Source: an uncultured euryarchaeote
Lineage (GTDB): Archaea > Thermoplasmatota > Poseidoniia > Poseidoniales > Poseidoniaceae
Reading direction: 5' to 3'
Assembly (NCBI GenBank): GCA_937892665.1
Contig: CALBJF010000011.1
Coordinates: 1 to 10,685, forward strand
DNA length: 10,685 bases
The notes under the pieces are model-generated. The model saw nothing but the letters and a program-made list of their open reading frames with translations, did no database searches and was not told the origin of the DNA. Every line of letters begins with the position of its first letter. Position 1 is the stretch's first letter. The position numbers were made by a program, and so were the translations under genes. Below are positions 2,656-10,685 of the stretch, piece by piece.

Positions 2656-3444
2656 TCACTCAAACGGATCAATGTTCACAATTTGTTCAATATCGATTCG
2701 CGGATAACCCCGCTCTCGAGCATTATCAGCTGCTTTCATCAACATTCTGCGAATCCATCCAAAAGCCATGAGGGCACTGAGCCTGTTAACTGAATCGATG
2801 AAATGCATTGGATCTCTTCCGAGATTTGCATGCTTGCGGATATCTGATTCAAGTTCCGAAACCATGTCTCCATAGGTGTAGAGTAAATCTTGAGCGGCTT
2901 CATCGGTGATGGCCATTTTTGCATGTGTACGAGACATTGACTTCACGTGAGGAATTGTAATCAATCCGCCACCCTGAACCTGGATTCCTTCTTCTTCTTC
3001 CACATCTTCTGAATCTTCTTCACCCGCTGATTCGCCTTTCCCCATCGAATTCAGTGCAAGTTGGAGATGTCGAGGTTTGATGGTTGAAACGCGGTCTCTC
3101 GAGGCTGCTTCTTCACAATTTCTCATGAGGCGAGCAAGGAACTTTTCGATGAATTCGATTCCACCTTGAACTGCTGCTGAGCCAACGGATTCTACTTGTT
3201 CAAGACGATCAATCATCAGTTCTCTGGTTCGATTATAATTCAAACGTGTACGGTTTGAATCATCTAAGGTCTTCCGCTCAGGATCATTTCCGAGCGTTGC
3301 TTGTTCCATTGAAGGGACGAGCGAATCGAGTTCAGAGCAAACTAAGCCAACAAGTGATTCTTTTACTGCACCAGAAATACGCATCGTTGTAAACGTCGAT
3401 GCTACGGAACCGATGTGGCTTGGAGCGTAAGGCTTTGCCGGCAT
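2656..3444 (-). CDS. Tandem histone-fold-like protein with an acidic linker
   Basis: A 262-residue soluble protein that does not match a family I can name with certainty. The segment at about 73-134 reads as a histone fold: a short helix, a long helix beginning SAAVQGGIEFIEKFL, then RVSTIKPRHLQLAL. The last part lines up with the loop-2/helix-3 pattern RKTIKAEDIELAV of archaeal histones without gaps. A strongly acidic linker follows (about 138-155, EEDSEDVEEEE). The C-terminal half repeats the plan: MAITDEAAQDLL (from 178), another long helix (SVNRLSALMAFGWIRRMLM) and ERGYPRIDIEQIVNI at the histone-like loop/helix-3 position. The N-terminal MRISGAVKESL (21-31) resembles MAITDEAAQDL (178-188), supporting internal duplication. 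Known doublet histones are shorter, with little linker. DNA binding, self-pairing or a TAF-like scaffold role are all possible. The ATG at 3444 is preceded by purine-rich GAGGTGG and AAAGG. The gene lies 49 bp after the M24 peptidase gene and one base before the membrane protein gene. The CDS is secure; the fold is inferred. Confidence 0.7.
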   Translation of the reverse strand: MPAKPYAPSHIGSVASTFTTMRISGAVKESLVGLVCSELDSLVPSMEQATLGNDPERKTLDDSNRTRLNYNRTRELMIDRLEQVESVGSAAVQGGIEFIEKFLARLMRNCEEAASRDRVSTIKPRHLQLALNSMGKGESAGEEDSEDVEEEEGIQVQGGGLITIPHVKSMSRTHAKMAITDEAAQDLLYTYGDMVSELESDIRKHANLGRDPMHFIDSVNRLSALMAFGWIRRMLMKAADNARERGYPRIDIEQIVNIDPFE

Positions 3445-3493: not shown

Positions 3494-4768
3494 TTACCAT
3501 TCAGTCAACCATGGCCATGCGCCATCAGCTGTTACTGGACGCATACCATCCTCATCGCGAATCCACGTATCCTCAGACCCGATGCTTCCATCTGTGTGAA
3601 CAACCTTTGGCTCAATGGCCATCGTCCCTCCAATCGGCAATGGACGATCAAAACCTGCAGCGACAACTGGAGATTCGTCCAATTGCAAACCTACCGAATG
3701 GCCTAGGAATTTCGATTGGTCTGGAACCATACCCATCAGATGATCTTGATGGCCGAGCTCGTGGGCTAATGCTTGCCCTTCGATCCAAGCATCACTGCAT
3801 AGTCCGCCTTCATCAAGAACGCCTACAACTGTATCTTTGACGGCTAACATATCCTCGAGACGTTGATGCCATTCTTGAGACAGAGAACCGAGAGAAAACA
3901 TTCTGGTCATATCAACAACATAACCTCGATGGACATGAACAAGGTCAACCAAGACTGGCTCATTTTTCTTGATTTTATTGAATCCTGAACCCATACCTGC
4001 AAGTGGATGTGGCCCTGCTCCTCCAACTGCTGAGTCAAAGAAAGAAGGAACTCCTCCTGCTCTTCCTGAGACAATGACCCCCCGATTACATTGCAATGGG
4101 AAGCGCCGCATCTGAACTTGGCCTCCAAATCCTTCACTACGGCTGATCGCTTCTGCTGCTGCAACCAAATCGAGTTCAGTCATACCTTCTCCACCAAGTC
4201 TCGAAACAGCATCGAACATTCTCATTTGGACTTCTGCTGCTGCTTCCATCTGTTCTTGTTCCCATGTCGACTTGACTTCTCTTAATCGATGAATGACGGA
4301 AGTCGCATCAATGCATGTTCCAAGAGAGGACAATGCGTTAGAAAACCGATTCGCAAATGTGGTTGGCAACTCACCAAATTGTAATGCTGGAGCCTCTGAA
4401 ACTCCTCTTGCTTGCAAGGTCTCCCCAAGAAGACTTAACCGCGGAAACGCTTCGATAATGAATGGAGCATTTTCTCCACCGGCTTCATGTTGTGCACGTT
4501 GTAGAGATCTTCGAACATAGAATACTGGTCCGTCTCCACCTGCTTCGATACTACCACCTGCTCCTTGAGCTGGCACGAACATCGAGCCGTCTTGTCTTCC
4601 ACCTGCGAAATAATACAAATCGATAGGGTGCTGAATAAGGACGCCTGGAAGCGAGGATGCTCGCAGAGCAACGCCTAGAGCGTTTAATCGGTGTTCGAGT
4701 TCTGAGACTGGTACACGCCAATCCTCGCCCTCGGGACCAGATAATGCGGATGAATCCCAATCGGACAT
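3494..4768 (-). CDS. M24-family metallopeptidase (Xaa-Pro dipeptidase/aminopeptidase-like)
   Basis: A 424-residue cytoplasmic peptidase of the pita-bread (M24) fold, which typically cleaves peptides next to proline using two metal ions. The N-terminal creatinase-like domain spans about 18-155 (LIQHPIDLYYFAGG). The catalytic domain follows from about 165 (REVKSTWEQEQMEAAAEV, the usual linker into the fold). All five metal ligands are present in order: D275 (VLVDL), D286 (YVVDMTR), H357 (LGHSVGLQLDE), E386 (MAIEPKVV) and E399 (GSEDTW). The enzyme should therefore be active. Subfamily (prolidase, aminopeptidase P or other) cannot be fixed from sequence alone. A glycine-rich insert (about 68-80, QGAGGSIEAGG) in the N-terminal domain is unusual. 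The ATG at 4768 gives a full-length N-terminal domain, with no strong Shine-Dalgarno. It lies 46 bp downstream of the methyltransferase gene and probably shares its transcript. No signal peptide is visible. Confidence 0.93.
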   Translation of the reverse strand: MSDWDSSALSGPEGEDWRVPVSELEHRLNALGVALRASSLPGVLIQHPIDLYYFAGGRQDGSMFVPAQGAGGSIEAGGDGPVFYVRRSLQRAQHEAGGENAPFIIEAFPRLSLLGETLQARGVSEAPALQFGELPTTFANRFSNALSSLGTCIDATSVIHRLREVKSTWEQEQMEAAAEVQMRMFDAVSRLGGEGMTELDLVAAAEAISRSEGFGGQVQMRRFPLQCNRGVIVSGRAGGVPSFFDSAVGGAGPHPLAGMGSGFNKIKKNEPVLVDLVHVHRGYVVDMTRMFSLGSLSQEWHQRLEDMLAVKDTVVGVLDEGGLCSDAWIEGQALAHELGHQDHLMGMVPDQSKFLGHSVGLQLDESPVVAAGFDRPLPIGGTMAIEPKVVHTDGSIGSEDTWIRDEDGMRPVTADGAWPWLTEW

Positions 4769-10298: not shown

Positions 10299-10685
10299 TC
10301 AATCGTCGTTTGCATTACGGCGAACTGGACGTTTGCGAGTTGGTGCTTTGCGAGCGGGTCGCTTACGGACTGGGCGCTTGCGTGGAGCAGGTTCTTCATC
10401 CTCGTCGTCATCGTCGTCCTCGTCATCATCATCGTCCCAGAAGATACCTTCTGCTTCATCTTCATCGATTTCTTCGACAACTTCCTTCTTACGGCGAGTC
10501 TTGCGTTGTACAAGATTTACTGCGAACGGATCGTCTTCATCCTTCTCAGGTTCAGGTTCAGGTTCGGCTTCCTTCTTTTCTTCATTCTCAGGTTCCGTCG
10601 CAGAACCTGTTCCTGTAATAGCATCCATATCCAGATCTTGACTTGTACCTATGAATTCTGACATCCAATCTTCATCTTCCTCTTC
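10299..10685 (-). CDS. Protein with acidic then basic low-complexity C-terminus (5' end outside window)
   Basis: A minus-strand frame is open from the right edge to a TGA at 10299-10301. A methionine codon lies at 10664, but the frame continues upstream through seven more codons reading EEEDEDW, in the same acidic style, so the gene most likely starts beyond the window. The visible 128 residues look disordered. In order they hold a short mixed segment (MSEFIGTSQDLDMDAI), an E/K/P region with an EPEPEPE repeat, DPFAVNLVQRKTRRKKEV, an acidic run of 15 Asp/Glu after IFW, PAP, and a 22-residue basic stretch of RKRP-type units before RRNANDD. Charged tails like this occur on nucleic-acid-binding proteins and on cytoplasmic ends of membrane proteins. 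I do not recognise the family, and no folded domain is visible. It stands 18 bp upstream of the antiporter gene and is probably on the same transcript. Confidence 0.75.
   Translation of the reverse strand, partial: EEEDEDWMSEFIGTSQDLDMDAITGTGSATEPENEEKKEAEPEPEPEKDEDDPFAVNLVQRKTRRKKEVVEEIDEDEAEGIFWDDDDDEDDDDDEDEEPAPRKRPVRKRPARKAPTRKRPVRRNANDD
10317..10382 (-). repeat. Arg/Lys-Pro repeat encoding a basic tail
   Basis: These 66 bp encode 22 residues built from imperfect four- to five-residue units of the type RKRPV, RKRPA, RKAPT, RKRPV. The units differ at the DNA level in third positions, so the repeat is maintained at the protein level rather than being a fresh DNA expansion. Such units resemble those of lysine/proline-rich nucleoid-binding tails. 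Confidence 0.75.
10392..10436 (-). repeat. Trinucleotide run encoding 15 consecutive Asp/Glu
   Basis: Forty-five bases of GAC/GAT/GAG/GAA codons (read on the minus strand) encode an unbroken acidic run. On the plus strand it appears as TCG/TCA/TCC triplets, which creates a false serine-rich reading frame. Runs like this are prone to slippage, so its length may vary between strains. Confidence 0.85.
10547..10565 (-). repeat. Short hexanucleotide repeat encoding Glu-Pro units
   Basis: About three copies of the hexamer AGGTTC (plus-strand reading) encode EPEPEPE in the disordered region of the same protein. The copies are nearly perfect at the DNA level, suggesting a recent expansion. Confidence 0.7.

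Follow-up and report, generated by a model that had tools for sequence, protein, structure and literature searches.

Gene and fold architecture

Here we analyzed a 10,685-nucleotide stretch (the window) of contig CALBJF010000011.1, from the assembly GCA_937892665.1 of an uncultured euryarchaeote of the Poseidoniaceae (1.73 Mb, 83% complete). The gene of interest is an open reading frame (ORF) on the minus strand at 2656..3444, with its ATG at 3444 and its stop codon at 2656-2658. We describe its 262-residue product, which has a computed isoelectric point (pI) of 5.14, as a quadruple histone-fold protein based on the ORF, a PF00125 match, and its homologs. An earlier reading made from the sequence alone had called both the frame and a histone relationship, and each was borne out: a Pfam scan of the protein matched PF00125 to residues 67–131 (E-value 1.4e-5). 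At 25.8 bits this match falls just below the cut-off of 26.4, and in the search of the organism's own genome it reached 26.9 bits, above that cut-off. PF00808 scored 12.7 bits, below the Pfam gathering score of 21.4. In ten relatives scanned with Pfam, five passed the PF00808 cut-off and two that of PF00125, and all matches to TAF and TFIID-18kDa were sub-threshold. Other sub-threshold Pfam names for the window protein or its relatives (Exo70_N, DAO_C, PCP_red, and others) were set aside. No family was assigned by a scan of the NCBIfam library, and phmmer against PDB sequences gave matches only at an E-value of 0.039 or worse, mostly to histones.

Homologs were collected in a search with the window protein (best 120 of 343 homologs listed) and in a second search with a profile built from 15 sequences, mostly of the sister family (best 120 of 174 listed); several of the listed homologs are annotated as "histone H3/H4" by JGI. 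Of the named loci, L001 (Candidatus Poseidoniales) is the nearest, with 98% identity across the protein, and loci at 97–98% identity carry the names Candidatus Poseidoniales (L001), Euryarchaeota (L002), and Candidatus Poseidoniaceae (L003). In one locus, L014:3255-4037, the histone gene is broken into two separate ORFs, and at the same coordinates G120:C227:3255-4037 has one internal TGA; these are probably one record, and the interruption may be a sequencing error.

The predicted structure contains four histone folds arranged as two pairs, with an acidic linker between them, all encoded on the minus strand. Fold 1 (residues 4–60; 3265..3435) comprises α1 at 8–18, loop 1 (L1) with R22-I23, α2 at 25–53, and loop 2 (L2) with RKTL at 57–60, and no clear α3 was seen in the model. 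It is joined to fold 2 by a basic loop (residues 57–74, RKTLDDSNRTRLNYNRTR; 3223..3276), distinguished by its charge and low entropy, in which residues 59–66 were modeled with a predicted local distance difference test (pLDDT) score below 50. Fold 2 (residues 70–133; 3046..3237) has α1 at 70–80, α2 at 89–116, an L2 containing T121, and α3 at 124–133, and the best PF00125 stretch coincides with it. The linker (residues 137–153; 2986..3036) bears out the acidic linker of the sequence-only reading: it holds ten acidic and no basic residues and is net negative in 233 of 234 aligned sequences. Beyond it lie two degenerate folds: fold 3 (residues 164–205; 2830..2955), with α1 at 164–174 and α2 at 181–205, and fold 4 (residues 212–256; 2677..2811), with α1 at 212–224, α2 at 227–245, and α3 at 252–255.

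The same reading had described a duplicated histone-fold protein of two units with extra helices. The histone fold and the duplication stand, but the models replace the two units with four folds. MRISGAVKESL and MAITDEAAQDL, previously taken as helices preceding each unit, are instead L1 and the start of α2 in two additional folds, whose own α1 helices lie at residues 8–18 and 164–174. The two halves are repeats, with a profile-profile score of 28.5 over 92 columns that none of 100 column shuffles reached (best 25.5). A smaller alignment scored 14.5, compared with at most 10.7 among 50 shuffles, and returned the proposed pairing of MRISGAVKESL with MAITDEAAQDL. The profile score of fold 1 against archaeal histones was reached by 0/100 shuffles, as was the score of fold 3, and fold 1 against fold 3 was marginal (2/100). 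These counts are uncorrected for the several comparisons made, and tests against the archaeal (Methanobacteria) histone profile are weak because of its narrow range of 119 closely related sequences. At the level of sequence comparison, histone similarity beyond chance is confirmed.

In the N-terminal half, the predicted structure and the structure comparison both place two histone folds paired within one chain, and the models support an H2B-H2A-like pseudodimer of folds 1 and 2. Viral histone doublets (Melbournevirus, 9cvt, 7n8n) were close structural matches, and NF-Y appeared in the Foldseek list as one chain, 7ah8_A, at rank 50. The likeness to viral doublets and quadruplets is structural; unlike them, the window protein is acidic and has DNA signatures in one pair only. 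The Methanopyrus kandleri doublet (1f1e) has two folds rather than four and lacks an acidic linker leading to another pair.

The C-terminal half is less clear. Its model is fairly confident (pLDDT 85), and in a comparison covering the families in the Foldseek list, with rows less than 1 Z apart counted as ties, a distorted histone pair tied with the AAA+ lid. The proposal that folds pair within the chain holds for the N half, which keeps the histone motif, and is tied for the C half. The C half could instead be a domain resembling an AAA+ lid, joined to a histone doublet, with no second histone pair. We consider this unlikely. The score ranking gives the lid a tie (<1 Z) rather than a lead, histone pairs align almost all 113 C-half residues where RuvBL aligns about 71, and the C half matches the N half as a repeat both in sequence (0/100 shuffles) and in helix order in the models. 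The strongest Cdc6-lid match (P0072, E-value 7.7e-4) lies within the N half, at residues 106–130 of fold 2; a Pfam match of this kind therefore cannot separate a lid from a histone fold. AAA+ lids and histone folds are held to be related. The C-terminal RMLMKAADNARERGYPRIDIEQI segment, which had been read as a histone ending analogous to that of the N half, matched the L2 and α3 region of archaeal histones along 23 columns in the larger alignment (1/100 shuffles) but not in the smaller one, where fold 4 scored 0.7 and shuffles up to 10.3. For the whole C half against the Methanobacteria profile, 7/100 shuffles reached the score. The best PF00808 stretch lies at fold 4 in two of the ten scanned relatives, P0256 (233–256) and P0072 (235–260).

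Conservation and candidate DNA contacts

Conservation was assessed in an unreduced set of 234 sequences (233 of the 240 listed proteins, each at least 240 amino acids long, plus the window protein), and column entropy after reduction to below 85% identity, which left 50 of 169 sequences. Identity to the window protein in the aligned sample is as low as 36%. The basic loop, with a net charge of +4, has the lowest mean entropy of the compared regions at 0.58, with 1.26 for fold 1, 1.36 for fold 2, 1.56 for fold 4, 1.62 for fold 3, and 2.80 for the linker. R22, K28, T121, and H126 are invariant (234/234), T59, L60, D62, and R72 are each present in 233/234, and within L2 of fold 1, R57 occurs in 213/234 and K58 in 231/234.

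Motifs were placed by eye on HMfB (R22 on R19, K58-T59 on K53-T54), in agreement with the profile alignment, and fold 1 resembles HMfB and PF00808 in having RV- and RKT-type motifs in register. R22 is followed by I or L across the set, giving an RV-type L1 motif found in fold 1 only, and the RKT[VIL] L2 motif is likewise confined to fold 1. Using the motif definitions given in PMC13260811, the L1 arginine of fold 1 (R22) and the L2 threonine of fold 2 (T121) make up a complete R-T pair. The opposite L1-L2 end keeps the RKTL of fold 1, but L1 of fold 2 reads S86-V87 instead of R-V. Canonical archaeal histones are single-fold, basic proteins with an R-D clamp and an L1 glycine associated with hypernucleosome stacking, and both features are missing here: residue 64 is variable, fold 4 residue 254 is D in only 17/234, and residue 19 is T in 144/234 and I in 86/234. 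The C half has none of these DNA-signature motifs, with placement there and in fold 2 being less sure.

This pattern bears on whether the protein contacts DNA at all. The histone fold could serve purely as a protein-interaction scaffold, in the manner of TAFs or SOS, with the basic loop as a partner site, and we regard this as a serious if lesser possibility. Had DNA binding been lost, the R22-T121 pair and RKTL would have been free to drift unless kept for some other reason, yet across the 234 sequences they show no variation or almost none. The SOS histone domain (1q9c) also differs from the window protein in being part of a eukaryotic Ras activator.

Distribution and neighborhood

With a profile specific to the family, we recovered the gene from 85 of 145 sampled genomes of the order. 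By row count and including partial copies, it is in 66/72 genomes of its own family (79–96% complete) and 19/73 of the sister family; from the source names of homologs, the former was taken as Poseidoniaceae and the latter as Thalassarchaeaceae. A draw from the class, which overlaps that of the order, gave 162/292 genomes, with 131/147 in the own family and 31/145 in the remainder, a split that relies on listing order for rows beyond those shown. Sister-family matches in the order draw fall in five genera (g14, g16, g18, g19, g20), and in the same 145 genomes there was no match in g11, g12, g13, g15, g17, or g21. The gene was probably lost in part of the sister family. The nucleoid protein MC1 was found in 131 of the 145 genomes, including members of each of g11, g12, g13, g15, and g17, and was not found in g21.

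The window organism's genome, in its 83% complete assembly, gave one match each for PF00125 and PF00808, both to the window gene, which is the sole histone gene found there. No other archaeal histone was recognized in the 145 genomes of the order. PF00808 matched at an E-value of 0.001 in six of them: the quadruplet gene only in G036, G113, and G133, the quadruplet gene plus a probable eukaryotic contaminant in G066, and below cut-off in long frames in the remaining two. The G066 candidate for a second, singlet histone (L085, G066:C15; PF00808 E-value 9.3e-16) was rejected. Read by eye, it is split by an apparent intron and resembles a eukaryotic NF-YB gene, and for these reasons it is probably contamination. 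A count of archaeal histones could wrongly include such a contaminant in an archaeal bin.

The window protein is a real, conserved, four-fold histone-like protein of a kind already published, which rules out the sequence-only suggestion of an undescribed family. Laursen and Luger (Nat Commun, April 2026; PMC13260811) describe cluster 5, acidic quadruplets of 130 proteins from Poseidoniales and one closely related genome. These are always the sole histone and have four predicted folds, a median length of 262, and a median pI of 5.2. The window protein agrees in length, pI (5.14), lineage, its status as sole histone gene, and the pairing of its N half within one chain; of its four folds, the N pair is clear and the C pair ties with the AAA+ lid. 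Cluster 5 was judged poorly conserved, with the first fold as the main carrier of the classic signatures (PMC13260811). Here, the R22-T121 pair across folds 1 and 2 and the 57–74 loop are nearly invariant. The published search used the two Pfam models, whereas our family-specific profile showed strong N-half conservation and a presence in over half of the order genomes. The main text of Schwab et al. 2024 (PMC11390915), in the parts available, contains none of the terms "Poseidon," "Thermoplasm," or "quadruple." A review of double histone folds (PMC13088155), within its available text, has no "Poseidon" and three uses of "quadruple," the one shown concerning viral proteins.

Sole-histone status, near-ubiquity in the own family, and structural closeness to viral doublets would all suit a main genome-packaging histone, with nucleosome-like particles formed from the four folds as reported for viral quadruplets. 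Against this, 75 of the 85 genomes that carry the gene also have MC1, 54/73 sister-family genomes have no match, the C half is without DNA signatures, the protein is acidic, and the codon usage of the gene is unremarkable. We consider bulk packaging improbable. Since the gene is single-copy with unremarkable codon usage, and MC1 occurs in most of the same genomes, a regulatory or bridging role fits better. No literature on histones in Marine Group II metaproteomes was found.

Pfam families were found for eight of ten scanned window proteins and for two there were none. The recognized neighbors are ordinary: exonuclease VII subunits, an Fe-S assembly protein, an M24 peptidase, a DNA methylase, PGK, an amidohydrolase, and a cation exchanger. 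The M24 metallopeptidase gene (3494..4768, minus strand) lies 49 bases upstream of the histone gene, an order kept in both families. Among 61 loci with a near-full-length M24 homolog, a redundant set that counts the window and two copies of it from the own genome, 60 have this homolog immediately upstream on the same strand. The arrangement recurs in the sister-family loci L056, L057, L059, and L062, and no M24 homolog was found beside the histone gene in L060, L061, or L063-L068 (g19, g20).

This neighbor might be likened to the peptidase-like domain of eukaryotic Spt16, in which case the two genes might act as a histone-chaperone pair. The persistent gene order in both families favors such a pairing, but no M24 homolog was found beside the histone gene in genera g19 and g20. 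All the metal ligands typical of the M24 family, five in number (D, D, H, E, E), are kept in 61/61 sequences. The neighbor looks like an active peptidase by its sequence, and an Spt16-like dead peptidase was rejected. No literature treating Spt16, an aminopeptidase, and a histone together in archaea was found, and we regard a chaperone pair as highly improbable.

Several other genes were seen nearby. An N6/N4 DNA methylase gene (PF01555; 4815-5783, minus strand) is next to the peptidase-histone pair, and no restriction enzyme family was among the ten window proteins scanned with Pfam. Of the 75 loci that extend 400 bases or more beyond the start of the histone gene, 29 encode a conserved, small Cys/His-rich protein 4–61 bases upstream of it on the same strand, and in a 30th (L050) this gene is displaced and inverted. 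In those 29 it sits between the M24 and histone genes, and the protein, for example at L030:1173-1491 (88 amino acids), has a CxxC and GGHECLH pattern. This protein has no Pfam family above cut-off and is perhaps zinc-binding. It is absent beside the window gene, and a single own-genome search that found none had no positive control and shows little. At 10299-10664 (minus strand), a frame open to the window end encodes a protein of at least 121 amino acids in which a basic K/R-P tail comes after a long acidic stretch. It has no Pfam family above cut-off. Its gene ranks first among the 12 of the window in codon adaptation (0.742), and related loci retain it close to the cation exchanger gene.

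Proposed function and significance

We favor, at roughly one chance in two, a single-chain double-doublet histone in which the N pair binds DNA and the C pair is used for protein contacts. DNA binding by the N half, as suggested by its sequence, has about even odds. The pseudodimer of folds 1 and 2 would engage DNA through one complete L1-L2 contact, with R22 beside T121, and the conserved basic loop would assist. The opposite end would be half-kept, with S86 replacing an arginine opposite the retained RKTL. The acidic linker would then tether a degenerate second pair that has lost its DNA signatures and may instead contact proteins, either another copy, which would produce bridging, or a partner. 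The quadruplet would work beside MC1.

Two points weigh against this proposal. The score of fold 2 against the Methanobacteria histone profile was reached by 22/100 shuffles, which does not support fold 2 as a histone. The authors of PMC13260811 also suggest that cluster 5 might not bind DNA and might have a role other than genome compaction. A more specific version of the double-doublet histone is that a one-chain, two-pair archaeal histone evolved independently, with an asymmetric DNA end and a new basic loop in the first pair and protein bridging in the second, and that it polymerizes or bridges through its fold pairs with no wrapping. We advance this only tentatively, as a rather doubtful possibility.

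These archaea are common in the surface ocean. An earlier survey placed histone loss at the root of the clade (Hocher et al. 2022; PMC7613761). The anatomy and sole-histone status published for cluster 5 agree with our findings, while the assessment of conservation differs (PMC13260811). A four-fold histone with an invariant candidate DNA contact offers a testable case of how chained folds may divide DNA binding and protein contact among themselves. Viral doublets and quadruplets have prompted the same question.
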